From Lineus longissimus (Eukaryota; Nemertea; Pilidiophora; Heteronemertea; Lineidae): a stretch of DNA of 64,000 nucleotides. How positions within the stretch are numbered: position 1 is the first letter of the stretch; each line of letters starts with the position of its first letter. Below the pieces are notes generated by a model, which was given only the letters and a program-made list of their open reading frames with translations, was not told the DNA's origin and made no database searches. Made by a program: the position numbers and the translations under genes. Shown piece by piece: positions 199-55,753 of this stretch. The stretch covers positions 17,982,599-18,046,598 of the forward strand of contig NC_088309.1 in NCBI RefSeq assembly GCF_910592395.1. The letters are read 5' to 3'.

Positions 199-1251
199 AC
201 ATCAAATTGGGTATTTGCCAATTTTCACTAGGGTTTGTATCAAAATGACATCAAAACTCTGAACATAGACGTCACAAGTCAGTCTGCTTCATGTAGTGGG
301 AGCCATAGTTTTGCTGGTACTCCGAGCAGGCTCAATCTTTTTGCCAACAAAAGAACTGGACACAACAAAACCATTTACAAACATGATACACGAATTTATT
401 TCAAAAATATCATTCGGACTGAATATTACACATACAAGTCAGCAATCGGTCAATAAAAAAAGCTTGCAACAATTCGGTGAACACAGTAGGATATGATATT
501 CATACAGATTAGCAAGTCTCGTACCTGGTATTTGGTCAAAAAACGTGTTTAGTTGCAATACTCAAGTTACCACTTATCATCACGTCCGAGTTCTCAAAGT
601 CATGAGACTGGCCACAGGTGGAGTCACTAGGCAATAAACCATACTGGAACCTAACTGTAGTGGCACGCAAAACACCAGGCCTGACAGTGCAACACTCCTT
701 AGAGAATAATTTCACTAGGCTAGAGGGACTGCAGAGGAACAAACTACAAAATGTACATCAATATTTTTTCCACAAGATTTGATAACATTTTCGGTCAGCT
801 TTTTACTATTTTACTCCAACTATATATATAACAGCCAAGCTGTAAATATGTGCATTAGGTAAATTACCAAATGTAACTTCAAACATACCATGACATAATC
901 AATGAACATTTCGCAAATTACATGTACCATTTTCGTACATGGACTTGCCATATCATCATTATAACAAAACTGTAAAAAATTGCCTGCAAATAGCCATGAC
1001 ACACGATGTATTAGTTGAGCTACAACAATCTCCAAGGGCAGGAAAATATCGAATCCAAGACATAGGCTAAACTAACAATCAAACAGGAACTGTAAGGAAC
1101 ATACACAGTTTGTTACTTTACACTGGTGAATGGAGCGAAATTATCATAATCATAAAATATTTCAAACGCAATGAGAAATGAAAATTCATTCTGCTGAAAA
1201 TTTGCAAACATGTTGAAGCGTGGGGCAACCAGAAAAGCAACAAGGGAAAGT
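199..1251. other. No gene seen
   Basis: A+T-rich sequence with only short ORFs lacking splice context or recognisable protein. I looked on the minus strand for the missing C-terminal MORF4L1 exon (MRG-domain end) and did not find it. Confidence 0.4.
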
Positions 1252-3945: not shown

Positions 3946-6900
3946 CAAACAACCGTAATAAATGCATTGCTCCATATATTTTTGAAACAGGTGTGTCCTT
4001 CTGATCAAGCAAAACCTGTAAAGAAAAGAACGGTAATCATATAACGACAAAGCAGTCAGCTGAATTTTCATGTAGTTTATACTGTCCTTTCCTGTTCTCA
4101 CACACGTTAGATGGCTAGATGAAGTGGAGCAAGATGGTACGGCAGCTGGTCTTGGGGAAGACTGGATGGAAACAACCAGTGAACCTACTATGACAAATTT
4201 TTTTAAAAGAATCCAGGCCCGAAGGTAAAGGCAAGGAGCATTCTTCTTACCTCACCATACTGCGGTCTTTCAAATTTATAAAGAAGTTGCGTCCCTAAAC
4301 TGACATTGAAGTATTCTTTGATGCCTTGTGTGACCTCTGTTATTGCATCTCTGAAATTAGAAGGATAAGACATAAGATTAGCGGATTGAATACTCGAGTG
4401 AAGTATGTTCGGAGAGAGTCCGACCAGAAAACCTGAGCACATAAGGTGGAAAAATGCAACATATTTGTCTCTTCAGTAAGATTTCTAACTGAATTCCTCA
4501 TAAAGGATCCATGCAAGGATACAATTTAAGGTGTCATTAACGTCAGGCCATTGTATGTTGAACATGATTATTTTTTAGGCAGTTTTGCAAATTATCTTCA
4601 GTTTGTGCCTGGTGACGTCAGTGGCATCAGATGGTCAGGCACTCTTCTATATTTAGCACAGTGAGTTGATGTGATCTATTTTCATCTAATAACTTTGTCC
4701 TATTATTAAGGCAGAATTGATCCAGCGATCAGGAAATCGATTATCTCAACAAAGCAGGTGATTTGGTACATTCAGCTGAAATATTACCCTACACTCAATT
4801 CTGACCCCAGACACAAAATATATTTTGGATAATTTCTGCAATAAGGGGACCATCCTGAAATGCATACCAGTGAAAATAATTCTGGTGCAATCTGTTTTGG
4901 GTCTATATTCTAAAAGGCCTTAGTCACAGTATATCATTGTTTCTAATACAAAATACATTACGCCTCGTTTTGATCGGAGCGGTCTTGGTATCGTAACCAA
5001 TGACCGCCTGGGTAGGTATAAAATTGACGTCATCTTCACAAGCAACAATATGGCGGAGTTCCGGACACCAGGTTGGATCATTCTTTGACGAAAACGGAAC
5101 ATATATACCTTTCAAATCGTATTTAATTTGTTTAATTTTGAAACCTTTTAGAATAGAAATTAATACCTCGCTGTCGGTCATTGGTTGTATAATCAAGACC
5201 GCTCGGGTAGACCTCAAATTACGTCCAAAACCCTCGGCGAAGCGCCTCGGGTTTTGGACTGCATTTTCGGTCTACCCGAGCGGTCTTGATTATACAACCA
5301 ATGACCGCCAGCTCGGTATTAATTCCTTAAACCCAACATTGACTTGACTACAATTGTAATGATGACCTTTGTGAAAATCACTTACTTATTTGGATTATTC
5401 GACTTGGTGAGTTTGTATTTGACGTAATCGTCAAGGATAGTCTCCACTGTCCTTTTACATGGCAATGCAATTAACTGAAGTAGAGAAGTACACAGTGAGA
5501 AAGGTTGACCGAGAACTTGCTTATGTAGAAGATAGAAATCAACGAAACCTACAGTAGGACCTCTCTATTAAGGACACCCTTGGGACTGACGAATGCTGTC
5601 CTTAATAGAGAGGTGTCCTGGTTAGAGAGGTCAAATTGAATGGAAACAACCAATTTGGGACCAAAACTAGTATTCTTAATAGAGAGGTTTCTGCTATAAG
5701 GAGAGGTTCCACTGTATTTATCTGATTTGTCAAGCTGGGCTAAAATCATGAGAGTGGAAGCAAACATTGAAGCGTAAAATTTCATTTTCACAAATGTAAT
5801 GTCAACTGCAAACCTCGAGACACAAAACTTTTGAACTGCAATGCAAATCACTTAATTTCGGCAGCAAATGCAATATTAAGTATACTGCCAATTTTGAATG
5901 AGTGAATTTGAAATTTTTTTTAGCTCATCATGTTCATGAGCATATCCCAGTTCACAGTGATACGGGAATGAGATTAAAAGTTAAAGTGTTTTAAGCTATG
6001 TGTATTAAAACATGAGTTATGAAGTCATGTGACAGTACCATTAGTCATGCTATCTTACCTGTTTCTGTCTGGTGACCATGTCCCAGTCGTCAACCAACCA
6101 AGGTCGCAACTCATCTGGGATCTTCACCCGCACTTCAATTTTTGTCAAAAACGATTCCTCCTGAAAAATAAGATAAACGGGCTTATTTAGAAATTGATGA
6201 ACACTCACTAACAACAAAAGATCTCAGAGTGATATCCTGTACTGCACAGAGACATTCTACCAAGACATCATATAACAACACAAAAATTCCATCTGGGATG
6301 ATCCTTTAGAAAAGACTTCACTCACAATGTCATGCTTCATGGAGACGCTTTTTTAACTTCAGTGTAAAGATTGGAAATCAATATTATAAATCTCTCAAAA
6401 TTTGTGGAAGTCATGGTCTAATCTAACACTTGTCAAAGTGTATAAATATATTTTCTCGTATCGGGACTAGAAACTTGCACAACCTACATGTGTGTATTGT
6501 CAAGCAACTTTAGGCAGTGCGCAGTCAAGAAGGAGGTAATGCACTATCCCAGCAAGAAAGCCATGTTCAAGTTTGTGAAGTAGCAGATGCATTCATCCAC
6601 CAAGAAAGCCATGTTCAAGTTGGTGAAGTAGCAGATGCATTCATTTACCAAGAAAGCCATGTTCAAGTTGGTGAAGTAGCAGATGCATTCATTTACCAAG
6701 AAAGCCATGTTCAAGTTGGTGAAGTAGCAGATGCATTCATCCACCAAGAAAACCATGTTCAAGTTGGTGAAGTAGCAGATGCATTCATCCACCAAGAAAG
6801 CCATGTTCGAGTTGGTGAAGTAGCAGATGCATTCATCCACCAAGAAAGCCATGTTCAAGTTTGTAAAGTAGCAGATGCATTCATCCACCAAGAAAGCCAT

Positions 6901-12900: not shown

Positions 12901-15460
12901 AATAATCACTTAAAATGCATCTGTAAAATTTCCATGACTATGTCTTTTAAAGAAACGGTTTAAATCTATTGAGAAGGAAATTCTGTAAGTAATAATGAAG
13001 AGGAATTCTAGCCCTGATGGAGTCCCAAACTGATGAAAATGTTCTGACGTAACCGACGTGAACGGCCCTGACGCGGACTGTCATAACCTGGGGTAAACCA
13101 GGCTTTCCATTTGTACGTTCTTGAACTTACTTTTTATTCCAACCATTGTAGTGAATAAAATACCGCACAACCTTGTCTTTCACTTCAGATTTTACGCACT
13201 GAAATACACAAAAGTTCAACAATTCAGAAGTTGAAAACATGCGGGGAGACTGGCCTCCTTAGCTCTTGGAGGCAACCAGCCAAGGAGAGAAAACTGGGAA
13301 ATTTCAAACCGGGTAGTCTGGGCTCGTCAGCCCGGAAATGACAACCAAACCAGGAGAGGAAACCTCCAAAGTAAAACCTGCCTGAAGACGGAGTGCGCCG
13401 GCCATACTGGCGTGTAACCGGTAACCGGGTGCACACGCAAACAACAACCAACAACCATGTCATAATTACCTACCACAGGTTTTTATTATTGAAGGAAGGT
13501 TAATGGCAAGAAATCAGCTGTTTCTTAATTATGCTTTCTCGAATTCAACACAAACCAAATCAAATTCAAGTCCAGGTAGTCTGCAGTTAAGAAGATGTGA
13601 AACTATTTAATTTGAACCATAGTGCAGTCATTTACCGTATTTTCCGGCGTATGACCCGCGGCTTTTTGCCCTCAAACAGGCCCAAAAAGTGGGGGTGCGG
13701 GTAATACAAAGGTGCGGGTCTTGCGTGGATTCTGAGAGGGATAAGCCCCAACCCCAAAGAAAAAACTGGTTACTTGATAAGGATTTATGTCCATCGTTTT
13801 CGCATTGTTTTCAACCAATATTTCCGCCATGATCGCATAGTTTGTGATGTCTCCGCTAGGGAAAATAGTTACGGCCATGCTGGAATTGATCCACTTTGGT
13901 TTAAGGAATTAATACCGAGCTGGCGGTCATTGGTTGTATAATCAAGACCGCTCGGGTAGACCGAAAATGCAGTCCAAAACCCGAGGCGCTTCGCCGAGGG
14001 TTTTGGACGTAATTTGAGGTCTACCCGAGCGGTCTTGATTATACAACCAATGACCGACAGCGAGGTATTAATTTCTATTCTAAAAGGTTTCAAAATTAAA
14101 CAAATTAAATACGATTTGAAAGGTATATATGTTCCGTTTTCGTCAAAGAATGATCCAGCCTGGTGTCCGGAACTCCGCCATATTGTTGCTTGTGAAGATG
14201 ACGTCACGCAGCAAGGGAATTCCCAGTCTGCTAGCTCGATTTCTACCATTTCCTCGTCTTTGACCTCTTCTGAATCCTGACTGACGACCTCGAAAGAGTC
14301 CTCGGGTATCCTCCCTACTTCACAAATCCCAATATATCGGGGAATACTTCAAAATCTCGTGTTCTTGACATTGTTTTGTGGGGCTGAGTCGTTGCTTCTT
14401 GGTGAAAATAATTCGTCTGCTAAAATTCAGAATTTTATACCTACCCAGGCGGTCATTGGTTACGATACCAAGACCGCTCCGATCAAAACGAGGCGTAATG
14501 TATTTTGTATTAGAAACAATGATATACTGTGACTAAGGCCTTTTAGAATAACAATTAAAAAAAACATGGCGGTTCTAGGATGTCAACATCAATGAATGGC
14601 TTACTATTTTTGGAGAATGCGGGTCTTGGAGCAGTGCGGGTCATAATCAGGTGCGGGTCTTGCGTGGCTTTAGGTAATGGTCAACGGGGGTGCGGGTCAT
14701 AGGGCAGTGCGGGGGATAATCCGGAAAATACGGTATGTCACGTTGGTTCCTCTATCCTCCCTGCATTCCAAAAAACACACTACTCTCAATTCTACACACC
14801 TTTGCTTCATACAGAAGAGGCCCATGAAAACAGAGCACCTTTTCACCTGCAAAAGCAACGAAGAAATTTTATTCAGGGTTTACACATAGTACTGGATAAG
14901 AACAACTATATTGTCAACCTCGGTACAGTGTAACCACCATCATTGTTTGCGCGTAACTGACATGACCTCTAATGCTATCTTCTTCAAAGAAAACACTGTA
15001 TTGCGCTCAACAGCCAACCTTGTGTTGTGTTCACCCAATTTCAATACGAGCAATTCATAATGCACGATTTAATTAAGCGCAATGCAGACGCAGTGTTTTC
15101 TTTGAAGGAGATGTGTCAGTTAATAAGCGCAAACCAAACCATCATCATATCTGGAACTGGAGTGCCGATTGGCCAAGGCTAGGCGTACTAACTAACTCAT
15201 GAACTGGAAGGAAAGATGTACATTTTGGACACATTGTGAAAAGTACAACCCGCCACCACCAGATGACAGCACCAAAAACGCATGCTTCTTATCAAGATAT
15301 CTCAAAGACCAAACATTGAATTTCCGTGAAACTTCGCCTGAATAATTCATGAACTATGTGGTTTCATTCCAACGTATTATCTATCTTGACAAACGACGAA
15401 TAAAAGTAGAAATTGACTTCATTGTTCCTCACCCTCCTGAAATTTTGGTTTGGGCGCCAT
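3946..15460 (-). CDS. MORF4L1: MORF4L1/MRG15-like chromatin protein, 3' partial
   Basis: Chromo-domain plus MRG-domain protein. The family reads methylated H3K36 and serves in NuA4 and Sin3 complexes. Exons (minus strand): 15433-15460, 14800-14846, 13131-13198, 12755-12841, 12154-12260, 11798-11887, 11292-11366, 10566-10640, 10057-10208, 6059-6160, 5386-5474, 4251-4350, 3946-4015; all phases agree and give 363 codons. Start [10 protein letters not shown]. The chromo domain (about residues 10-70) shows [26 protein letters not shown] and VPETRVLK, including the aromatic-cage positions. A Lys/Ser/Thr-rich linker contains [13 protein letters not shown]. The MRG domain shows [37 protein letters not shown] and [10 protein letters not shown]. 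About 55 C-terminal residues, including the usual PEYHRKA end, are not in the window. The linker comes from serially similar exons, unusual for the family. MRPL18 diverges from its promoter. Orthology is confident; small linker exons are less certain. Confidence 0.93.
4906..5330 (-). repeat. MITE family C, copy 1 (internally deleted)
   Basis: Reverse-strand copy of the element at 13901-14550 and 32912-33530. It lies in the MORF4L1 intron between the exons ending at 5386 and starting at 4350. The part around 5170-5325 is a long inverted repeat: arms containing CGGTCATTGGTTGTATAATC and its complement flank an inner CCAAAACCCTCGGCG hairpin. Compared with the other copies about 220 bp of the interior is missing. 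Confidence 0.8.
5550..5716 (+). repeat. MITE family A, copy 2
   Basis: Begins TACAGTAGGACCTCTC and ends GGTTCCACTGTA, with the same internal CTTAATAGAGAGGTGTCC blocks as copy 1. It lies in a MORF4L1 intron just upstream of the exon at 5386-5474. Confidence 0.75.
6547..7315. repeat. 48-bp minisatellite open on both strands
   Basis: About sixteen units of 48 bp (CAAGAAAGCCATGTTCAAGT... GCAGATGCATTCATCCAC) in a MORF4L1 intron. Because 48 is a multiple of three, long ORFs run through it on both strands (6517-7179 plus, 6544-7290 minus). The plus frame would encode [16 protein letters not shown] repeats. Differences between units (AGC/AAC, GGT/TGT, GAA/AAA, CAC/TAC) nearly all change the amino acid, so I see no sign of selection on a protein. 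I call it a minisatellite, not a gene. Confidence 0.9.
7316..8546. other. Intronic sequence of MORF4L1, no feature recognised
   Basis: Lies between the 48-bp minisatellite and the long hairpin, inside the large intron between the exons at 10057-10208 and 6059-6160. No exon-like reading frame with splice sites and family similarity was seen. Confidence 0.45.
8547..8733. repeat. Foldback element with near-perfect long hairpin
   Basis: Left arm AAAACTAGGCGCTTGTCGCA... to GACTTGTTGTTCATTTC (8567-8629) is repeated in exact reverse complement to the right, ending TGCGACAAGCGCCTAGTTTT near 8710, around a loop of about 30 bases. Outside the perfect part, CAATTGTGA and GCTCTA match imperfectly, extending the arms to about 85-90 bp. 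A diverged relative is at 61490-61687. It is in a MORF4L1 intron. Confidence 0.85.
9445..9510 (-). CDS. Candidate optional MORF4L1 linker exon
   Basis: Minus-strand acceptor GGTTGCAG, then 22 open codons ([19 protein letters not shown]...), then donor AAAG/GTGG. Both ends are phase 0, matching the junction between the MORF4L1 exons at 10057-10208 and 6059-6160, so inclusion would keep the frame. Its SSQSSTAS core recurs in the preceding exon ([10 protein letters not shown]). It may be a cassette exon or a decayed duplicate. No transcript evidence is available here. Confidence 0.35.
10704..11286. repeat. Degenerate MITE A broken by nested insertions
   Basis: The left end TTACAGTGGAACTTCTCC near 10704 and right end GTATTTAGAGAGGCTCTACT near 11265-11286 are degenerate family A ends, separated by extra sequence. 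Inside are an inverted repeat (GATATGAATAAAGACTAGCA at about 10831 paired with TTTATTCATATC at about 10931, a roughly 30-bp stem with a 40-base loop) and a family B fragment ending GTACCCCTTTAA at about 11235. It lies in the MORF4L1 intron between the exons at 11292 and 10640. Confidence 0.6.
13635..14733. mobile_element. MITE family D with CCGTATTTTCCGG inverted ends
   Basis: Ends are CCGTATTTTCCGG (13635) and CCGGAAAATACGG (14733), flanked by TA on both sides (13633-13634, 14734-14735), a TA target-site duplication typical of Tc1/mariner/pogo elements. Subterminal repeats are GTGCGGGTAATA and GTGCGGGTCTTGCGTGG. The interior is interrupted by a family C element (13901-14550). No transposase ORF remains. 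It lies in a MORF4L1 intron. Confidence 0.8.
13901..14550 (+). mobile_element. MITE family C, copy 2, nested in MITE D
   Basis: Starts TTAAGGAATTAATACCGAGC and ends CTAAGGCCTTTTAGAATA. The left 170 bp is a long hairpin (GGCGGTCATTGGTTGTATAA and its complement around an inner CCAAAACCCGAGGCGCTTCG stem). The right end again carries GGCGGTCATTGGTTACGATA. Nearly identical to 32912-33530. ORFs of 88 and 126 codons overlapping it are repeat-derived. Confidence 0.85.
14945..15135. repeat. Small foldback element
   Basis: TTTGCGCGTAACTGACATGA and TTCAAAGAAAACACTG on the left are matched in inverted order by CAGTGTTTTCTTTGAAGGAG and GTGTCAGTTAATAAGCGCAA on the right. The structure is an imperfect foldback of about 190 bp in the first intron of MORF4L1. 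Confidence 0.65.
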
Positions 15461-20434: not shown

Positions 20435-23400
20435 TCAAGAGTCTTCAGTTCTTAGTCTTTTTCTCGACGGTTCACCAGTCCTACTTTCACCCATTTGATC
20501 GTTCCCTTGGATGACAGTCTGGGCGCTCACATCTCGGACTCCTCCAGTCTGTAATAAAGTTAGAGACTTATTGTAAAGATGGAACGGACGTAACAGTACT
20601 AGCCTGGTTATATAAATGACTGCTGTTGGAAGGTGAACGAGAAGTCTTCCTTCAGAAAGAAAGTTTTTCAAATAGGATTTTTTCTTCGAGACATTCCAGA
20701 AATATCCAGGTCAATTAGATGACCTCTTCTTTTGGCCCTTTCACGCTTATCTGGTGCAAGTAGTAAGGTAAAGGGGAACTAAAGGCAGGAGCCAGAGTGT
20801 CAAATTTGTAGTCTTCTGGTGACTAATATGCACAGTAAGGGGCCTGGCATGCCTTGGTTGAGTTTGATTCAGCAGTGATTACATTTCTCATACAAGGATG
20901 AATAGTTTCCATGTACTGTGAGACAAGAGAGACCCCTATCAGTGACTTCACATAATATAATCTGGCCTACCAGGCTCCTACCCCGAGTGTCCCTTTAAGG
21001 ACATGCATTGCCACTGGACTCACAGATTCTGCCTGTTAAAGAGAGGTTATTTAGATAATATTTGGTGTCCTTTACGCAGAGGTGGACACTTACACAGGTT
21101 ACAATGTACTTTCCTCCCCTAAAGTCATTTTGACCCTCAACGTATTGGCAATGCTCAGCTTCCAGACAACGCGCAGAGGCAATACCGCTGGAAGGGAAGG
21201 TCAGTATGCCATGCCTAAAGTGTACATATAACTTTCCAATCAAAAAAGAAAATTGTCTCACCGTAATTTGGTACGGAACTGTGGCTTCTTGTCTTGATGG
21301 TGACTTGTAGAGTGTTGCAAATCTCTGGTTGTTCTTCCAATGCAGTATAACGCGGATGGTGCAGGCATGGCCCCAGCTTTCTCCAAGAGCTGGGATGAGA
21401 TAAGACTGGTTCAGCTGGTCAGAATGAATCTTTGTCGTCATTTGATTTGTTAGCACCACCTGAAATTGACAAGACAAAACGAGAGTCACTGTCAAGTGTG
21501 CGTGCAAAGCAAGGGCAAAATATACTACACGGTATGCACCCTTCACACCAGCAACAGCAAGACAAAACAAAATCAGAGTAAACCAAAGACAAAGGCTCCC
21601 CTTTACTCAGAAGATGGTAGTATATTTTGCCCGTTCATCATTGTCAAAGACACAGATCACTATAGTGCATTGCTTACTTTGATTACATGTATTTCCTCTA
21701 AACAAGCAGCAAGAACACTTTTGTAACAGGCATACTTGGCTATGTGTACTTACTGCCAATTTATTCTGTGTAGCCATCTTGATAAAACTTTGCGACATGC
21801 CGTTTAATAATCTTGTCCTTAGCGAGTAATCGTCAAAATCGTGTCGGAAATGGAAAGCTATGCTGTCAACTATTATCACCTTGACCTGAAAAAATCCAAG
21901 TACGCAGTTTCGTTATTTATTTTCGATTATTCTTGTCATTATGACGAAAATAGTGGTATCCTCGGTGGATCACTGCATTTCTTACATGTCTCAACAGAGC
22001 ACCTTCAAACAGTTCGACTCTCATCTAAAACAATCAACTGTTGGGATAATCTGGACATAACATCTTCCATAACAGCTCAACTAGAAACTGCAGTGATAAG
22101 TATAAGCACCAACAGCTTACCTGAGAATGTTCGGAGAGGAAGTCTGGCAACGTGTGCACAACAGCGAGGAGTTCTACGTAGTCATGGCAACGGAAATAAA
22201 ATATTTTTGATAGAATATCTTCCATGGTAAATTTTTCCAATGCATCTTCTTGTTCTGAAAATGTTTAGTTGAGACGAAATCAAAAGAAGGAAATTTTGGA
22301 GCATTTTTTATTTGAAATGTTTTACTGCTGGCCCGAATGCTCTGAAATTTGGAGGACAGCTCAGTCATGTTGGATAAGGCACATATTGAGTTTTGCGATA
22401 AAACTATGTGCAAAGACCTTTCCAAAAGTTATTTAATTATTATATCCCTTTTGACTGAAGCAACACACCATGTTGTCTTTTTTGAGAATGAAATGCCACC
22501 TTCGTACAAAACAAAACAATGACGATGCAATAGGCCTACCTTTGTTTTTTTCAAGCGTAGAAATATGCTGGCAATGCTTCACTGTAGCTTTGGCTATATC
22601 TGCCAGTCTCTCAACAATAAAACTCCCCTCCGTATCAATATAGACTGCCTCGCCACCAATGCCTCCAAATGCTTCTGGTATCTGGACATCCACTGACAAC
22701 TGCATACTGCAATGCAAAAAAAGTTGATCTTTGAAATGACTTTAGATCCAGAGAGATGTCATACTGAAAACCCTGTGGAGAACCCAGGCAGAAGGTTTCA
22801 GATTGGATTCCCAGCACTAATGATCTGTAGCAGCCCTATCTGCTTTCACTTCCCAAAATAACTTTAACATAGACAAACCCTAGGCCTATGCAGCTTAAAA
22901 GTCTACGCCGTTCGTTATTGAAATTTGTCATTGAACTCGAAACTTCTCAAATGCGTCATGAATATAAATTTCAGCAAATTCGAATGCATGACTGCACTAG
23001 GCATTGTGTATAACTGCATTTCTACTTTCTTGGACCAGCAGTAATCATTAAGAGATTAGGACAAATAAGTGATAACAGGACAGCCTCTATATCATAAACC
23101 TGAAAGAAAAGGCTAACCAAATTTGTGTCTTTCCAACCCCGGGAGCACCGCACAGCTCAGTAATCTTTGTAACAGGCACACCGCCACCCAAGAGCTCATC
23201 GAGCTTCTCTGAGAATGTCACAATATTTTGTTGAAACTGCTCATCTTGAAGCATTTCAAATGCTGTCATCGATTGGGGAACATCTCCATTCGGTTTCTCT
23301 CTAACCAGCTGAATAATTTCTAATGCCTCATCTTTTGAAATCTTCAATTCTGAAAGTTAAAAGTAGATTGGCTTGATATATAAAAGATGGTCACAATTTA

Positions 23401-27028: not shown

Positions 27029-30000
27029 ATTCTCTGAATAAAATATTGAAATATTGCAGGATTAGGTTTACATGTAGATTTATTTTCAAATATTACTGCA
27101 CACCAAAATAGTATATCGTACATTTTATTTCAACAATGCAGGAGAAAAAGCATTTTCTAAATATCAGAAAATGAAGGATACCTCAGACATTGAATTGTTT
27201 GTTGTGTTTCATTCGACTTTATCAATCAAAGCACAATTTATAGTTTCCCTTGGTTTCTTCTAGACAAGGTTAATCCACAAAGTAAAATAACACATTGATT
27301 TATACTAGTATTCCTAAAATCCGGCAGGTCTATAGGCCTTCATTGACTAATTTGGATTGTGAGTCATGCAGAAATTTAGGTTTGCTCACATGTTCTTAGC
27401 TTTTCATTTCATAAATATTTCTTTGTTTGCTAATGAGTACCTGCATGATCACTTTGAATATTAGGTGGCAAAAGAAAACTTGAAATGATTTTAAAAAATG
27501 TCTCTTTTAATTCTTTTTTCTCAAACATCCCAAATTGGAGTACATAAACCCGAAATCTAATTTTGGTAAAGCACCAAGATATGGAACTGAAGCAACCTTT
27601 TGAGATTGTTTACACTCATCACACTTCAGTTGTCAAGCCACATTAGCCTTATCTTGCCAGCATGGGGCCAGAGCTCAGGCAGCCTGCATCTCGCAAATGT
27701 GGGCAGGCCATAGGTAAATTGCTCTCCACCCGGTGTTTGGTATCTGGAAAAGGTCGGTCTTTAAATAGGTAAAATATCAACCATAAACAAAAGCACGTGC
27801 TTGCTTGTTTACAAATATTGATGACGCTATCCAATCAGAAAGGTCTATTGTGGTCACGTGACCCAATTTGGCACTTCGCGCTTGCAGCCTAGAAATTCAT
27901 ACCAAATATATCGGAGAGCATCGGCAATTTAAATGACTCCAACGACATAAACCTCATGAAATATAAACTTAATAGGGAGCTCTTAAGCGAGCTTTATGGT
28001 TAAGGGTCGAATGTGTGTGTGTATACCGTCAACAAAAAAAACTTGACCCGGTTGACCGGAACCAGAAAACCTCTACACCCAGGTGACATTTTTGCACGCG
28101 AATCGTATACGCTAATGCACAGCAATTTACCTGGGGAGAGATTTTCTTTTTCCAAACAATTCAGCGGGACGCTACGATGTTTACGCAGAGAAGCCGCTGT
28201 TCGGTTGAAGATTTCGTCAAAACAGGGCCGAATCAAAGTGTAACGATACCCTGGGGCGAATCGAAATGCATTAAACAACAAGCTGCATCGCTGCCAGAGA
28301 TTAGTTTTCTCTTTCCGCGACGAAATCGTGCTTTGAACTGGCAAAATTCCGCAAAAGATTTTCCGTCTGCTAACTTTTCCGTAGTTTCAAGCGCACCAAC
28401 ATGATCGGTCCGGGGCTGCCCGTTTCGACGACGATTTCGTCAATATCATGGGGTGTGACAATATGTCAACGGTCTGGTTCCATTAATAATGCAATAATCT
28501 TGAAAGTACATTGGTCTCAATGTCTATTTCCCCGTTTCCATGTCAAAATCCTACCGTGAAACCTGAAACCACTCGTCCACAACACTGGCCATTTTAATTT
28601 TCCGTAGAAAGCGCATGCGCACTTAACTCAAACGCACGCGCTACCCTCAGGTCTCACAAGCCGGTGCGGAGGCCAGGCCTACCTGCCTCCAAAAATGACG
28701 CGACGTCATTTCATGCATACCCCTGTTCCAGCGGCTGTAGACTTGGCAGTACGTTACTCTCACACAAACCAATACATTTCTGAATAGCATGTCTCTTGTA
28801 TTGTAGAATACATCTGACCAAGTTTGACCAAGTGATCAGGCGTTAATCTTGAAGTTATAAGGCATAGAGGTGAATTTTTTTCAAATTTGCGTTATACAGG
28901 GTGTCTCATGCATTGTGCTACATCAGTCTATGCATGACTGTATGTCTAGGCGACGTTGGTCTTTTTGAATTAGACTATAAATCTTAATTACACTTGGGTC
29001 TTGGGATCATTATGCTTATCTCCGGGCAAAAATACCTATCCTTCTCCTGTTGTGTTTAGTTTCCCACATTCTCCCCACTTATTTTCTATACTGCGACAGC
29101 GTCTATTGGGTCAACTGCCATGATGGCATCATCCTAACTATATCCCCCCTCTCCCACCCACCAACTACTCGCCATCAATCATTGACATTGTGTGCTAGCC
29201 AACTGCTTCTTCGGTAAACTGCCATGATGGCATCATCCTAACTATATAACCCCCCCCCCCCCACCGAGTCTTCTCGCTCACCAGCCCTATTAACGAAGAG
29301 CTCCCTATCAAGGCCTGAGCCTTCCTCATATTAGGGAGCTCTTGAGCGAGCTTTATGGTTAAGGGTCGAATGTGTGTGTGTATACCGTCAACGAAAAAAA
29401 CTTGACCCGGTTGACCGGAACCAGAAAACCTCTGCACCCAGGTGACATTTTTGCACGCGAATCGTATACGCTAATGCACAGCAATTTACCTGGGGAGAGA
29501 TTTTCTTTTTCCAAACAATTCAGCGGGACGCTACGATGTTTACGCAGAGAAGCCGCTGTTCGGTTGAAGATTTCGTCAAAACAGGGCCGAATCAAAGTGT
29601 AACGATACCCTGGGGCGAATCGAAATGCATTAAACAACAGGCTGCATCGCTGCCAGAGATTATTTTTCTCTTTCAGCGACGAAATCGTGCTTTGAACTGG
29701 CAAAATTCCGCAAAAGATTTTCCGTCTGCTAACTTTTCCGTAGTTTCAAGCGCACCAACATGATCGGTCCGGGGCTGCCCGTTTCCGACGACGATTTCGT
29801 CAATATCATGGGGTGTGACAATATGTCAACGGTCTGGTTCCATTAATAATGCAATAATCTTGAAAGTACATTGGTCTCAATGTCTATTTCCCCGTTTCCA
29901 TGTCAAAATCCTACCGTGAAACCTGAAACCACTCGTCCACAACACTGGCCATTTTAATTTTCCGTAGAAAGCGCATGCGCACTTAACTCAAACGCACGCG

Positions 30001-32632: not shown

Positions 32633-33582
32633 TATACGACACAAATGGGTTGTCCTCATGCATTCACTTTGGAAACGCATTTTACTATATCCCCCCTCTC
32701 CCACCCACCAACTACTCACCATCAATCATTGACATTGTGTGCTAGCCAACTGCTTCTTCGGTCAACTGTCATGATGGCATCATCCTAACTATATACCCCC
32801 CCCCCCCCACCACCACCACCACCACCACCCCCACCACCACCACCCGAGTCTTCTCGCTCACCAGCCCTATTAACGAAGAGCTCCCTATCAAGGCCTGAGC
32901 CTTCCTCATATTTAAGGAATTAATACCGAGCTGGCGGTCATTGGTTGTATAATCAAGACCGCTCGGGTAGACCGAAAATGCAGTCCAAAACCCGAGGCGC
33001 TTCGCCGAGGGTTTTGGACGTAATTTGAGGTCTACCCGAGCGGTCTTGATTATACAACCAATGACCGACAGCGAGGTATTAATTTCTATTCTAAAAGGTT
33101 TCAAAATTAAACAAATTAAATACGATTTGAAAGGTATATATGTTCCGTTTTTGTCAAAGAATGATCCAGCCTGGTGTCCGGAACTCCGCCATATTGTTGC
33201 TTGTGAAGATGACGTCACGCAGCAAGGGAATTCCAAGTCTGCTAGCTCGATTTCTGAATCCTGACTGACGACCTCGAAAGAGTCCTCGGGTATCCTCCCT
33301 ACTTCACAAATCCCAATATCGGGGAATACTTCAAAATCTCGTGTTCTTGACATTGTTTTGTGGGGCTGAGTCGTTGCTTCTTGGTGAAAATAATTCGTCT
33401 GCTAAAATTCAGAATTTTATACCTACCCAGGCGGTCATTGGTTACGATACCAAGACCGCTCCGATCAAAACGAGGCGTAATGTATTTTGTATTAGAAACA
33501 ATGATATACTGTGACTAAGGCCTTTTAGAATATACGACACAAATGGGTTGTCCTCATGCATTCACTTTGGAAACGCATTTTA
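32633..33582 (+). mobile_element. Composite insertion between 52-bp direct repeats
   Basis: A 52-bp sequence (TATACGACACAAATGGGTTG... GGAAACGCATTTTA) occurs at 32633-32684 and again at 33531-33582. Between them are a right-end fragment of the 1.36-kb element (32685-32911, with a C-run expanded into CCA repeats and ending GAGCCTTCCTCATAT) joined directly to a full MITE C (32912-33530). Both parts occur elsewhere in the window in other contexts. Confidence 0.8.
32912..33530 (+). mobile_element. MITE family C, copy 3
   Basis: Nearly identical to 13901-14550 from TTAAGGAATTAATACCGAGC to GGCCTTTTAGAA, lacking about 24 bp in the middle (ACCATTTCCTCGTCTTTGAC region). It contains the same long hairpin at its left end. 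Confidence 0.85.
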
Positions 33583-46393: not shown

Positions 46394-49300
46394 TCAGTAG
46401 TCGTAATAAATGGCTGCTCCGCCTCCTGGTTGCGTTGCAAATAGGGCCGTGTCCACCTTCGCTGCTCTTTCGGCATCATTGCTGTAATAGTTTTCACTCA
46501 AGGATGCGATAAACTGTTCGACTTGATCTGCGGGCACCATGGAGACAGCACAACCGCCCCAACCGGCTCCGGTCAATCTAGATCCGAGTGAACCGGATTT
46601 TCTGAAAAGGAAATGAACATAGGACATGAATCCGCAAGTTTAAAATCCAAGTGAACGAAAATTCGGAAAAAGGAAATGAACATAGGACATGAATCCGGAA
46701 GTTAAAGATCCAAGTGAACAAAAATTCTGAAAAAGGAAATGAACATAGGACATGAATCCACAAGTTAAAGATCCAAGTGAACGAAAATTCTGAAAAGGGA
46801 ATGAACATAGGACATGAATCCGCAAGTTAAAGATCCAAGTGAACAAAAATTCTGAAAAGGAAATGAACATAGGACATGAATCCGCAAGTTAAAGATCCAA
46901 GTGAACAAAAATTCTGAAAAGGAAATAAACATAGGACATGAATCCGCAAGTTAAAGATCCAAGTGAACAAAAATTCTGAAAAGGAAATGAACATAGGACA
47001 TGAATCTGGAAGTTAAAGATCCAAGTGAACCAGATTTTCTGAAAAGGAAATGAACATAGGACATGAATCCGCAAGTTAAAGATCCAAGTGAACAAAAATT
47101 CTGAAAAGGAAATGAACATAGGACATGAATCTGGAAGTTAAAGATCCAAGTGAACCAGATTTTCTGAAAAGGAAATGAACATAGGACATGAATCTGGAAG
47201 TTAAAGATCCAAGTGAACCAGATTTTCTGAAAAGGAAATGAACATAGGACATGAATCTGGAAGTTAAAGATCCAAGTGAACCAGATTTTCTGAAAAGGAA
47301 ATGTACATAGAACATGAATCCACATGTTAGGACATTTTATTTGTTGATCAATAACAAAACCTACATTACATTCTGTCATCTAAGTTCTTTGCATTTCTCT
47401 TTGTATAACAGGTATAAATTTTTAAGTGAAGTCAGCTCAGTTCAGCTCTGGTCAGTGCACATCTTGAATGGACTGCATGGTTAAGCCCTTTCCCTGGCCA
47501 GGGGAAAAATGGCAAATGACACTTTTTGAAATGTTTTGGCGAAATTCATGGTCATAACACATTTTTTTGTGACTTCGGGCAGGAGGGGAGCGGGGGATAT
47601 TTGCCTCACCTAACCCTTGAGAACCATGAGTCTTATCCCGCCAAGAACAAACCAACTTACATGCATATATCAACCAAGGCGTCGAGATCTGCGCAGCTGC
47701 ATTCATACATGTCCCTGCAACTTGCATGACTCTCAGACATCAGATCTCCCAGGGTCACAGTGGCACCTTCAGGCTTCTTGGTGCAAATCTCCTTGAACTT
47801 CAATACTCTGTTGGCTTCGCCGTAGACATGCGTGGCACGTTGGAATAACTTGAACGATTGCACTGAAACGAAGATGTTTAGACTCAATATTGTTTGGATT
47901 TGACCTTGGGCATGGTGGCCATAATAAGCAGTGCCATATCTGGCAACAATTCTTATTCATCTCCTTTTGCTCTTGTAAGCGTGTTTTTGGCTCCATATGG
48001 AGTTATTGGCCTATTGACTCCATATTTGGCAGGAGAGAAGGAGTCCACCACAAGCTACGGACTCTCCCATCTCACAGTATGTCAAAACAAATCATGCTTG
48101 TATGAGGGATATATCAAGTGGTGAATCAAACATGACCCTGTGCCCTCACTGTGCATTTTAGGCACCCGAAGATGGCCAATTTTACCCCTGCCTATTGTCT
48201 CCTTTTAAAACTGATAAAAGTCACATCGCTTACCATGTAGTGTATTTTCACTCAGGCTAGTACTCGCTAACTCATCAGCTGTTACTCCAAGCTCCAGGCA
48301 GACTTCATCTTTGGTGTACGGTTCCTCATGAAGGTGCTGCCTCACCTCTTGCAACATCCCATCAAGTTTTAAACCCAAGGCATTTTGGACGGAACCAAGT
48401 TTCTTGAATCCTCGCCAGTAAAGCCCTTTCTTTTTGGCAAGAATCTAAATGACCAAAAAAGACAACTTAGAGATGTGACTTCTAAACAGCTGCTTCAATT
48501 TGTTCCCTACCTTTTATTGTTGTCCTAAGTTTACACATGACACATTTGCATTTTACCAACTTTGAACTTGTTTTAAAGTTCAAACAAAACAGAATTTAAT
48601 GAGTGCCTCTATGTACGTAGAATAAAATTATGCGCTGTAAAGTTCTGATATAAGTTTAAAATATGTAAGTTTTATGTGTCTGCAACAGTTAGTAATAGCA
48701 CATTTTTTAAAGACTGTAGGTAAATTGGTGGAAATCTAGCCCTTTCATTGAGATTCACAGTTTTTGAATCTGTGAATAGAGGACAATGGCATGTAACTTA
48801 ATATCATTTGCAGTAGAACCTCTCTATTAAAAACCCTTGGGACTGACAAGTGCTGTGCTTAATAGAGAGGTGTACTGATTAGAGAGGTCAAATTGAAAGA
48901 CAACAACCAATTTGGGTCCAAAACTAGTGTTCTTTATGGAGAGAGTGTCCTTAATAGAGAGGTCTCTGCTAAAGGAGGTTCCACTGTAATTGTTCACCTA
49001 CCTGTGCTGCCAGTCTGCATTCAACTACTCTGGTGTTGAAGTCAGAAGTTGCAGCTTTGTTCAGTTCAACACAGCTGTTACTGACAACAAATACGACACC
49101 GTCGGGTAAGGCAACATCCTTAGCTTTCAAAGGGTTGAATTCGATGTATTTGGCCTGAAAATCAATATAAAGGTTGTTTTTTTCCAATACAATTTTTTTT
49201 CAGGAGATCCGCTTTAACCACTGCCACCTCTTCTTCTTTCTTTGTAACACCGGGCCAGCAATGACTGATTTTCCAGGAAGAGGACGCCACAGATATACTC

Positions 49301-52300
49301 CCGAAAATGCGCAGAGACAGTTTGTGGACATGGGAATTAGCATGAAGTGGTTTGGCACCAATGTAGCCCAGAGATTCAGATTCAGTTTGTGGACATGGGA
49401 ATGAGCATGAAGTGGTTTGGCACCAATGTAGCCCAGAGATTCAGATTCACTTTGTGGACATGGGAATGAGCATGAAGTGGTTTGGCACCAATGTAGCCCA
49501 GAGATTCAGATTCAGTTTCTGGACATGGGAATGAGCATGAAGTGGTTTGGCACCAATGTAGCCCAGAGATTCAGATTCAGTTTGTGGACATGGGAATGAG
49601 CATGAAGTGGTTTGGCACCAATGTAGCCCAGAGATTCAGATTCAGTTTGTGGACATGGGAATTAGCATGAAGTGGTTTGGCACCAATGTAGCCCAGAGAT
49701 TCAGTTTCAGCCATGGGAAATTGCATAAAATTGCACAAGGCCTTATATGTAGCCCAGTGATTTAATTTAGCTGATTGTCAAGCTATTGCCACTGCTCCCT
49801 GTCACTAGGGTATAACATTGTAGTGACAGAGGTGTGACATTCATTTTGTCTGAACTTTGATGTCATTTTCACATATACTCTAATGAAAATCAGCATGATA
49901 TCTGATTTCAAGGTGGAGAAATACTACAGTACTTACAGTGCCAGGCTGGCCAAGGAAGGATATAGCTTGGTCCATTCCTCCTCCGATTGTCCCAATGTAA
50001 TGTTCACACAAAGAACATACATCAGCAATCTCAAGCTGAAAGTGTATAATGAATACATTTATTACAGTCAAGACTAAGGTAGATTTCACTTATATCTATT
50101 GGGCTCCTACTAAAATTTAACCCAAGCAATTTTCTGAAGCTGCAGACTTACTATTATTAACCCTTCTGCTGCACAACCTTAATTTTTTTCCCTGATGTGA
50201 TCATGCTGAGGTCAAAATTAGCAAATAATTTATGTCAATTTATTTGTGTTAGTTTTATATTAAAAACACTCAGGGAATATTAAGGGCTAACTCCCCAATC
50301 AGCGTATATCTGCATATAAGTCTAAAACAAGTAGCTAATATAGCAGGGCCAGGTCCCCTATCGGCGTACAGCTGTACGGTAGCCATTTTGATTTTTTTAC
50401 ATCAGCGATCAGCGTACATCCACAGCGAAAATGTTAATAATTCCTTGACAACAACTCACTAATCTAGCACACAAATGTCATGAAACGATCAGGAAATGTG
50501 GAAATGTCGTGCTTATTTCGTTTATGACCATCAGATTTTATATTAATGACTTTAAACTTGCTGCTGGACGCTGGTGGGGGCTGTTTAGGATGACCCAATT
50601 CCCAATTTCGATTCATATGAAGTAGATGTAATCAGAAACTATCAAATTACAAAGTGTTTACGTACCTTTGACAGCTGCTTGCCATTGGCATAGACGGCCG
50701 CAAGACTGGAGGCGCACACTAGAGCACTAGACGAGGACAGTCCAGCACTTCTTGGTACATTGCCATCAAGAACGAGATTCATTCCTTGTGGATTCTCTAG
50801 TTTGAAATGTTCAATAATGCCCTTCAAGCCACAAAGAAAGTAATGGTACCAAAGAGGTCTGGACTTGTCAATTTCAAAGTCGTTGACTTCGCAGGTAAAA
50901 TCCCTGAAACAGAAGACACATTCTGTGTGGAAATCTAAGTGAATCTGGATGCAGAATGTTTCTTTATTTCAGTACATGATAATCCACCTTGAACTTTGTA
51001 TCGGCAGTTATGTTGATTTCACCAAAGACTTTGTGACAATTAGGTGTTGCCAAGACAAAACAAGTGCATGAAGGCAAAATAATAATGTTATGGCAAAACA
51101 ACTGAAAAATCGTAAGCCAGAAAAATATTCAGGCAGATTATCATGATTAAATACAATCTCATCAGGTGTGTGAAACAAAATATTTCATTAAAATTGTTTA
51201 ATTCTTTGGTATGGTATTTCTAACAAAGCAATAGTGTCAAGGCTTTCATGAGTCACATAAGATGACCGATAGTAAAAAGATAGAAGGTTCCTTACTCAAA
51301 GTTTCCATCAGAATTTGCAAGTCGTATGACACCATCATTATTCGGAGAAACTGCTATTACAATATCTTGCTCCAGAGCCATTGGAAGGACTCCATATCCA
51401 CAATAGTCAATGTGTTCTCCTGAAAAAATTAGGCGAAATATATAGAAAATTCTCAAAAGTCAAGGCAAAACAAAAGCGAGGAATAATTTTCAAAACACCA
51501 AATGAATATGAAATTAAAAGTGCTATATTAAAAATAGTACTTCCATTTACTTATTTATTTGTCAAGTGGACATGCTAATAACTCTGAAAAGCCATTTGAT
51601 TAGCCAATTTTTAAAAGTTTTTGCAGCAAACATCCCTCAGTGGCTGATCAAAGACTTTCTAACATTGAACAATCAGTCAAACTTTCCAGCATTTTTGTAT
51701 ATTTCCAGATAAGATTGTTAATCCTAGTATTGACCGACATGAATGAGAAATGCCAAAAGTAAAAAAAGAAAAATTGTCATTAAGTTTTGAATATATAGTA
51801 AGTAGGAATTCCACAAAGTAATGAATTGACACAGGCTTTGACATTAGTTTCTTACTTTGTGACATTTTACTCATTCTTACTCTGATTTGATAGGTTCTTT
51901 ATTCATCGTCATTAAATGCGACACCCGTGGTATTGAAATACAAGTGCCAAGGTAACAATTACCAATTAGATTCACTCTTCCTGGTGCTCTTGCATAGAAG
52001 TCTGGGGCAGTTCCATATTTCTGTTCAAACAGTTCCTTCAGCTTCGCATACCTGAAGAAGAGACGATTCAAAGCAAATTAACCAAGCAGAAGATAAGCCA
52101 TTGATGAAGAGCTATCCACCATCACAATAGATAGACTGCTGGGCAAGGGCTATTTAAATGAGAGACACTTGAGATCCTACTCATTTAAACGTATTCGGTA
52201 AGGAAAGAATTCTAGGCTCATTGATCATTCCACACAATCAAAGTGACTACGAAGCCCAAAAAATGTCAGGCCTTGACCAACCCATGTATTGTAGGTAGGT

Positions 52301-52949: not shown

Positions 52950-53176
52950 GTGGCGCGGCGTAAAATAATCTCTAAATATTTTCGGACTATTTCAGAATTT
53001 ACAACTAATCGACAAATAAACAATATTTTGTTGTGTAAACCATAACACGTTTTTAACATTCGATGGAAACGAAATCAAGCATTTGAATCAAATTAGCTTT
53101 TGAAAAACAGTACACCGTGTCGGAAGCCAGGTTCAATTCCTGATTCCAGATTTTCTCTCAACCTTCATTTGGGAAA
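52950..53176. promoter_or_regulatory. Divergent GALK2-MRPS30 promoter
   Basis: 227 bp separate the GALK2 ATG (minus, 52947-52949) from the MRPS30 ATG (plus, 53177). A CCATTTTGGCC-type motif lies within GALK2 exon 1 and no clear TATA box is seen. Shared promoter use is inferred from spacing. Confidence 0.65.
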
Positions 53177-55753
53177 ATGGCAGCGACCGTGAACATGCTT
53201 TGCCGGTTTCCAAAGCGATTTCCCTTCAAATTCTATCGATTTTCACCACCAAAAAACAACAACTTTCGATGTAGCTCAACTTTAACCAATCAAGGGCAGT
53301 CAGAGTATTCTTTAGAGCCTGAATATCCCCCTGTCACCCCTCGATGGCCCCCTGGAAAGTGGGGTGAAATGAAAGAGAAAATAGCTTGGGAATTTTATGA
53401 AGAAACTGTGAAACTCCAAGACACAGAAGTCCTGCACGAAAAATTAGATGCACTTAGGAATCATGAAAAAATCTACTCTATTGTAAAACCAGATGACTCT
53501 ACCCCAAGGATACTAGATTTTCAACAGAATGTAACAAAAACTGCCATAGTTGAAGGCTTGCCTCCGATGTATGAAAATATCGTGGTTGACGAAGAGTTCG
53601 AGATTTTGAAGCCTCTTATCCTTGATGGGTTGGTGAGAGACTATCGTGCACAGTTTGTAAAAGATATCCATGGCAAAAAGGCGCATTTACAGGAACCTAA
53701 ATATAGCAAGAGACTTGTACACTCACTTACGGACATGTTACTTGCAACTCTTGCTGGGAGCCATGATCATTTATTGAGGTCACAGATTGATAGAGATGGG
53801 AGGATCGAGTGTTTCTGGTCAAAGTTGTTGGAGAAAGATCTATGTCCGGACAATCCGTCTCAACAACACCCGGGACTTGGTAAACACCGCCACTTGCGGT
53901 TGCAGCTAAATCACGTCAGTGATTTGATGATGCGAACTGAACAGCCACTACCAGAGGTATGTCGGAGGCCAACCAAATTTAATTTCACGGTTCTTGTCGA
54001 CCACTTTCAGGAAATGGGAGGGGGTTCCCTTCGTCTTCCTTTTCATGACTATCCTGGTGGAAATAACAAATTCATTGAAATTAGTTCAGCAGATAGAAAA
54101 CAGACAATGCATCGTGCAGACAACCACAAGTTGAAGAAATTTGTCCTCTGCTTGATTACATGAAATAAATCGGCTCTTTTACATTATCTGTATTTGCCTA
54201 CATAAAAATGATTTGCTCTAGTTCATAATTTCAGTTTCTTCCAAGAGATGATGTGTTGTGTACCAGTGCAGACGTCCCCGATTATGACTACCACCCTCGG
54301 GCTGCAAATGCAGCATTTGCGAGGATAAAGCCAAGTGTTGTTGCTGGTGGGTACCCGGTATTTGTTTTTTGTCCCCATCAGTAATCACATCGACTCATGT
54401 GTGGGAAACAACAAGACTGCTATGATTTCAGTTCACTTCTTCTTATAATGAGCCTCGATTTTACGTTGTACTAAAGGGTGAAGCAATTTAGGGTTGAGTA
54501 TCTTGCTCAAGTCATCAATATGAAACAGCAATGATTTGATAGTGATAATGTGCCCAGTGCTCTAACCACTATGCCATTGGTCTCCCTAATTTGTTTGGGA
54601 TCAGAGTCTGGCTAATACGACATCTACCACTACCAGTCTAACTTTTGAAGAAGAATGATGGAACCATTTAAAACGTCGAGGTGATGGTTAACATTTATTG
54701 TGTAAAAACTACCTCGATATCCTTACATATTTCACGATCGGATGAAGTTCTTGCAGATGTTTTCGATTTGTTTTGCAGGTTACAAGACCAAGGATCAATT
54801 TGTGGATGGCGCTCCGTGTGAATTTGGTCACGTCTCGTTCCATACCTGTAACGAAGTGGCACATAATCGAGAACGTCTCAAACAGAACATTGATAGGGAA
54901 TTTGTGAGGAGCCTTGGCGTCTTGACATCGTTTGGATGGACGGCTGCTCAGGCTTACAACCAAGGTGAATTTATCAATGTCAAGTTACCAGCATAAGACC
55001 AGCTGTGTTTCCAAAAAAATGTTTTGATGAAAGACTGACCGTTTCCTGTTACCAGACACCAGGTGGAAAGCATTTGAGATTTCCATCCGCCTGCCAAAAT
55101 CAGGATGGCAGATAGTATCATTTCGTTTAGGCAGTCGCTAAAGACCTGGCTGTTTGATAGACATTTTGAGGGGTTGGCGCTTTGAACATATTTGCACACT
55201 GAAGAATCACCCGAAATAATGATTTCGTTATTCTTTTTTAGGCTTTGACTGGTTGAACGATGTGACCTACCCGTTTACGACGCAGACTGTCGTCACAGAT
55301 GGAAAAAACATTACTTTCTTTGCTTACCAGCTCAACACCTTGCTGCTGTGGAAGAGCAATGATGTAAATCCTCTCAGGAACATCATGTGGACTTCTCCCG
55401 AAATGCAGCTGTATGAAGCCATCGAAGGAGACCAGGTCATCGGATTCAATGACGAGGCCCTAAAAACTCTCATAAAGATTTTCAAAAATGCACCTGTCGA
55501 CCGAGGGGTCGATTTGAGACCCTACCTGTCCAAGGATTACGAACCCTTGAAGGCTGTGCCTTATATGAATATCAAAGGTGAGCCGGTCATCGAGAGACCT
55601 CACCCGCCGAGGTTGTTCGCCGAGAGTAAGAAGAAGCCTCTCGCCATTTCGCCGATTGTGACGACACAGGAGAAGATTCAGAAGATGTGGGAGAAGGGAA
55701 ATAGACACTGGAATGAGGAGAAACAAAGATTTGATATTGTTGAGAGGAAATAG
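53177..55753 (+). CDS. MRPS30: Mitochondrial ribosomal protein S30 (mL65)
   Basis: Mitoribosomal protein, historically S30 but located on the large subunit as mL65. Exons: 53177-53956, 54235-54346, 54779-54964, 55242-55753; phases agree and give 529 residues (human 439). The N-terminus MAATVNMLCRFPKRFPFKFY is basic and hydrophobic, as for mitochondrial import. Conserved parts include YPPVTPRWPPGKWGEMKEKI, VEGLPPMYENIVVDEEFEIL, FGHVSFHTCNEVAHNRERLK, FGWTAAQAYNQGF, YPFTTQTVVTDGKNITFFAY, QLNTLLLWKSNDVNPLRNIM and YEAIEGDQVIGFNDEALKTL. The tail after about residue 470 (ERPHPPRLFAESKKKPLAIS) extends past the human protein. Divergent from GALK2. Confidence 0.95.

Follow-up and report, generated by a model that had tools for sequence, protein, structure and literature searches.

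A mirage in a nemertean: a minisatellite made of copies of the last splice acceptor of GALK2 in Lineus longissimus

Introduction

Minisatellites that lie across an exon-intron boundary have been described in lancelets under the name of mirages (PMC3087553, PMC3902484). The cases named there are Adh3, the globin genes BflGb6 and BflGb9, TnC and PGBD5; PGBD5 was added by PMC3902484, which cites Adh and TnC. In BflGb6, the 3' end of an intron is repeated together with the start of exon 2; two haplotypes hold 6 and 3 units, and the data suggest that regular splicing is undisturbed (PMC3087553). Lancelet mirages occur at both kinds of exon-intron boundary and are backed by RT-PCR and length polymorphism.

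Two human systems are also close. The IFI6 gene (6-16/G1P3) holds minisatellite repeats that offer several splice sites; these are donor copies and are used for different mRNAs (PMC4526556, citing Turri 1995). In genes of segmental duplications, minisatellites at boundaries can change splicing, and their repeats, which may stay in the mRNA, have been connected with new introns in paralogues (PMC2812944).

Here we describe an array that closes the last intron of the GALK2 gene of Lineus longissimus. Like the lancelet mirages, it consists of tandem boundary-spanning units, many of which keep the splice signals, and like BflGb6 it lies on the acceptor side and joins the 3' end of the intron to the start of the exon. 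It differs in belonging to the phylum Nemertea and to another gene, and in having 11 units instead of the 6 and 3 of the BflGb6 haplotypes. It is described here from its sequence; its copies are acceptors, not donors as in IFI6, and they break the reading frame, unlike the human repeats that may stay in the mRNA. A literature search returned no case named mirage outside the lancelets among the matches listed. As far as this search goes, the GALK2 array is a known kind of structure in a new phylum.

Results

We analysed 64,000 nucleotides of chromosome 2 of the nemertean Lineus longissimus (C2:17982599-18046598, assembly tnLinLong1.1), called the window in the following; coordinates are window positions unless another stretch is named. 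A manual model of GALK2 on the minus strand has 9 coding exons between 52928 and 46394 that encode 458 amino acids, and all of its introns are GT-AG. In all 458 residues the model protein agrees with a public L. longissimus N-acetylgalactosamine kinase-like protein. Exon 8 (47661..47862) ends at the donor at 47660, intron 8 (46602..47660) has 1059 nt and runs from GT to CAG, and exon 9 (46394..46601) is the last coding exon, with a phase-2 acceptor at 46601 and 208 nt including the stop codon. The public protein, which may itself be a computed model, fits the acceptor at 46601. A gene for the mitochondrial ribosomal protein S30 (PDCD9 family) adjoins GALK2 on the plus strand (53165-55753), and a weak Rad51 match below the cut-off lies farther away on the minus strand (20995-21606). 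The window contains no Rfam family at the gathering score and no tRNA, and it gave no match to a phage collection.

When the window was searched with TRF, a 63-bp array was found at 46600-47329. Read on the minus strand, TRF and unit alignment resolve it into 11 head-to-tail decoy units of 62 or 63 bp (46632..47319), followed by the true boundary. The first bases of units 0 to 10 are at 47319, 47256, 47193, 47130, 47068, 47005, 46943, 46881, 46819, 46757 and 46694. The true boundary is in register with the units (46569..46631) and comprises 30 nt of the intron and 33 nt of exon 9. Each unit contains a pyrimidine tract, a CAG in 10 of the 11 and a stretch that resembles the start of exon 9. The units fall into two types. 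Type A (units 0, 1, 2 and 4) has 63 bp and the exon-like part AAAATCTGGTTCACTTGG, and type B (the other seven) has 62-63 bp and carries AATTTT[TC]GTTCACTTGG. At the far edge the array is bordered by a distal flank (47320..47332, minus strand, TCCTAACATGTGG), which resembles the unit tails at 6 to 9 of 13 positions.

The ten CAG decoys have their first exonic bases between 47289 and 46726, which places them 688 to 125 nt ahead of the real acceptor. This count leaves out two TCG matches of the search expression that are not acceptors (46781 and 46655) and the unit nearest the exon (46663), where the former CAG is now CCG (46664..46666). The ten decoy acceptors and the lost CAG of the nearest one had both been noted in the first-pass annotation. 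Units 1, 2 and 4 are mutually identical, as are units 3, 5 and 7, and these identical runs show recent homogenisation. The edges are less uniform; the most divergent is unit 10, next to the exon, and at the opposite end unit 0 is not identical to unit 1.

The first-pass annotation had proposed that the units are copies of the last GALK2 acceptor with about 22 bases of the start of exon 9. That they are copies of this acceptor was borne out by alignment. When the first 22 nt of exon 9 were compared with the units without gaps, 20 of 22 positions matched in 4 units, 16 in 6 units and 15 in 1 unit; the high matches are the type A units, the matches of 15-16 the type B units. Elsewhere in the window the best match to these 22 nt is 15/22, so that the single nearest unit cannot be told apart by this measure alone. 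Type A differs from exon 9 at two positions, both C to T at a CpG of the exon and both silent. On the intron side, the last 30 nt matched all 11 units at 27-30 positions.

We then aligned 60 nt around each GALK2 junction locally to the rest of the window, with 10 shuffles per junction as the null, which reached 32 at most for any junction. The exon 9 acceptor scored 94 against a null maximum of 27. The other 15 junctions scored 21-30, and only the donors of exon 1 (29) and exon 6 (30) exceeded their own null maximum, by 2. Of the 16 junctions, only the exon 9 acceptor is copied within the window. A second minisatellite of the gene, 65 bp x 6 in intron 5 (49318..49710, minus strand), served as an internal control and is not copied from any GALK2 splice junction. 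A dispersed repeat was rejected as the source of the array, since the array with its flanks gave one genome match among the best candidates scored. Elsewhere in the window, one open frame is present in three copies (4924-5347, 13869-14348 and 32769-33401), reversed on the other strand, and is a dispersed repeat, and two near-identical segments (28000-28404 and 29359-29763) lie about 1.36 kb apart.

Tandem repeats are prone to misassembly, and generic acceptors resemble each other. Yet the HiFi reads behind the assembly come from DNA that was sheared to 12-20 kb, far longer than the 730 bp of the array (PMC8593623, which also names the alternate haplotype assembly, GCA_910592375.1). Exonic bases are part of the copies, and none of the 15 remaining GALK2 junctions matches. 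An assembly artefact or a chance likeness is thus highly improbable.

The copied codons encode KSGSLGS. In 14 aligned animal GALK2 proteins they sit in the largely conserved stretch [SA]G[SA]xGSRLTGAG, in which two glycines and the next arginine are invariant. Since these codons lie in a largely conserved stretch, the exon predates the array and is its source, in agreement with the earlier view that the array derives from the exon boundary. The array is a head-to-tail minisatellite, its unit spans the exon-intron boundary with exonic bases, and its units are homogenised and its edges less so, as in mirages. It is a real mirage, made of copies of GALK2's own boundary of intron 8 and exon 9.

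The consequences of decoy use were followed in silico by joining exons 1-8 to each of the 10 CAG decoys. The predicted products have 397-460 amino acids, and none of the ten contains LTGAGWGG: every decoy leads to a stop before this motif, either by a frameshift or by the TAA in the unit adjoining exon 9 (46640..46642, minus strand). This TAA lies in the reading frame of exon 9, which opens at 46639, so that in-frame inclusion from any upstream decoy is blocked. The first-pass annotation had suggested that the exon 9 frame runs on through the adjacent units and that decoys could insert blocks of 21 residues next to LTGAGWGG. The 63 bp of the type A units, three distal ones of which are open in one frame, would fit such blocks, but the 62-bp units shift the frame and no CAG decoy reaches exon 9 in frame. 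The insertion is excluded for the haplotype examined, and we give it practically no credence.

The real acceptor was also compared with the decoys in its splice signals. Over 23 nt (20 of the intron and 3 of the exon), decoys 1, 2 and 4 do not differ from it. All decoys are closer to the exon 8 donor than the real site; decoy 0 lies 371 nt from it, the real site 1059 nt. Decoy 0 is also preceded at 37 nt by CTAAC in the distal flank, the best branch-site-like motif among the decoys; it resembles the branch-point consensus, and we presume that it could act as a branch point. Because decoy 0 combines the shortest distance with the best such motif, it should be preferred if only proximity or strength counted. 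Should the decoys indeed be unused, no simple rule of strength or proximity would explain it.

The AG-free stretch is 123 nt ahead of the real acceptor and 28-69 nt ahead of the decoys, a difference that is due to the loss of the AG in the nearest unit. Selection had been considered as the cause of this loss. With 3-6 changes at random positions of the nearest unit, the AG would be struck in 9-18% of cases; the loss is compatible with chance and selection finds no support. An RNA structure that loops out the decoys was also considered and rejected, as the fold did not surpass those of shuffled sequences (z 0.23; 12 of 20 shuffles were at least as stable).

The close likeness of three decoys to the real site and the shorter distance of all ten to the donor could also mean that a regulated share of splicing goes to the decoys as a dose control, yielding proteins that lack the C-terminal GHMP part at a level that changes with array length. 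Decoy 0 would then produce a protein of 460 amino acids with a repeat tail. There are precedents in the repeat units that serve as splice donors in human IFI6 (PMC4526556) and in an intronic VNTR reported to affect ABCA7 splicing (PMC5954066). However, when the decoy tail was searched, no protein carrying it was found among the 7994 candidates scored, which were those sharing most words, and there was one unrelated weak match (E=0.5). In addition, a product without LTGAGWGG would be expected to be inactive, and lancelet mirages are said not to interfere with splicing (PMC3087553). We therefore regard dose control as unlikely.

The copied AGs could also serve recursive (stepwise) splicing or the birth of an intron, each of them rebuilding a donor. 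New introns have been proposed to arise by tandem duplication of AG|GT (PMC3087553). The array, however, is without GTRAG and also without an AGGT whose duplication could supply the two ends of an intron; intron 8 has two AGGT (47611 and 47362), both outside the array. This makes either role very improbable.

Repeated splice sites were then sought at other loci of the genome. We selected by hand 92 loci from protein-family profile matches, consisting of a kinase set of 40 loci with short matches, picked from 140 matches and including 5 loci with two or three matches, and a myosin set of 52 of the 88 myosin-head matches. A repeat had to touch the profile match within 20 nt and was sought in up to +-400 bp; since profile edges are not exact exon ends, cases may be missed. 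Of the controls, GALK2 exon 9 was found and GALK2 exon 8 gave none. The survey yielded two clear cases (L064 and L036) and a borderline one (L065).

L064 (C10:23201-28900) is a full donor mirage, with a 72-bp unit x 6 on the minus strand at C10:26781-27212. The end of a myosin exon, for which myosin VIIa is the closest solved structure, is copied (ATCTCATCCAG) together with the donor GTAAGG. The array offers five decoy donors that do not differ from the real one between -11 and +6, and all five would lead to a stop. At L036 (C4:2876954-2878023, locus positions 668-856, minus strand), a kinase exon acceptor, TATTTTACAG, is repeated at steps of 23-30 bp; CAG is retained in six decoys and is CAT in one further copy. 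Splicing to one of the six would stay in frame and add 25 codons. The copies share only about two exonic bases, and L036 therefore falls outside the strict definition of a mirage. At L065 (C2:28771701-28777000), a 61-bp array (C2:28773274-28773693) starts at intron position +4 of a myosin exon, and its copies are without the donor GT.

Some touching repeats were left uncounted: a 21-bp array about 24 nt into the L064 intron, a 25-nt pair in L067 and a two-copy pair of 70% in L072. In L024, L026 and L056 repeats lie near the exon match and do not touch it. L022 (C1:7148501-7150300, locus positions 613-1062) has two tandem kinase exons that match the same part of the profile and look like mutually exclusive exons. 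In GALK2, L064 and L036 alike the true site is the exon-proximal copy; since coding continuity demands this, the agreement of the three genes is not independent evidence.

Finally, we asked how densely arrays are spread around GALK2. Tandem arrays with a period of at least 20 and at least 2.5 copies cover 4.9% of the 257 kb around the window, and at window positions 1-57402, 7.3% lies in arrays of period 20 or more, with units of 46, 48, 63, 65 and 79 bp. With a coverage of 4.9%, arrays that land on junctions need no special cause. For the roughly 184 junctions surveyed, 8.9 array cases are expected by area and 2 were observed (3 with L065), with a binomial P for so few of 0.006 (0.02 with the borderline case), where the expected count rests on the coverage of one region and on hand-chosen loci. 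Junctions are not enriched for arrays, and arrays are perhaps depleted there.

The 31 arrays of the 257 kb were screened by splice motifs and open frames, a crude approach made without annotation, and GALK2 was the clear case among them. At 38011, 59514, 117401 and 206635 (positions of the joined stretch), open frames of 40-80 codons lie beside a donor- or acceptor-like motif; at 38011 the donor falls 19 nt outside the array. When the regions at 117401, 214617 and 243630/243943 were read by eye, no convincing exon with a copied boundary was seen. Beside the 136-bp array at 117401-118080, an 80-codon open frame (L008 655-897, minus strand) runs up to a donor-like site in the array's edge. Neither a Pfam family nor a solved structure matched this frame at E 0.1, and it is a weak candidate.

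Discussion

We consider it very probable that the GALK2 array is a mirage of 11 boundary copies that likely grew passively from one short duplication and that splicing likely ignores in favour of the exon-proximal copy. The founder would have been a duplication of about 63 bp that reached from a CTAAC-like branch site, at about -42, to position +21 or so in exon 9, probably joined at 2-3 nt of shared sequence; these breakpoints are inferred from the weak similarity of unit tails and distal flank. Unequal exchange or slippage may then have amplified the unit, which would explain why identical units, both of type A and of type B, occur in runs. The true site would win if recognition acts on exon 9 as a whole, including the downstream signals that belong to it, and not by pairing across the intron with the nearest acceptor. 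If the true site is chosen by exon recognition, copies on the intron side would be nearly harmless and could therefore persist.

Two full mirages and one repeated acceptor in a nemertean, at both kinds of splice site, suggest that any minisatellite-rich genome may make them. It is possible, though we put it somewhat below even, that splice sites swallowed by minisatellites are common throughout the L. longissimus genome, affecting donors and acceptors on the order of 1% of junctions, and that the spliceosome, faced with up to a dozen near-identical sites, systematically picks the one closest to the exon. If this were true, the genome would offer a series of natural minigenes in which exon definition is seen to prevail over the strength of splice sites and over their proximity across the intron. 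Mirages such as those of GALK2, with three decoys that equal the real site over 23 nt, and of L064, with five decoy donors that equal the real one from -11 to +6, are natural tests of how the spliceosome chooses among many near-identical sites.
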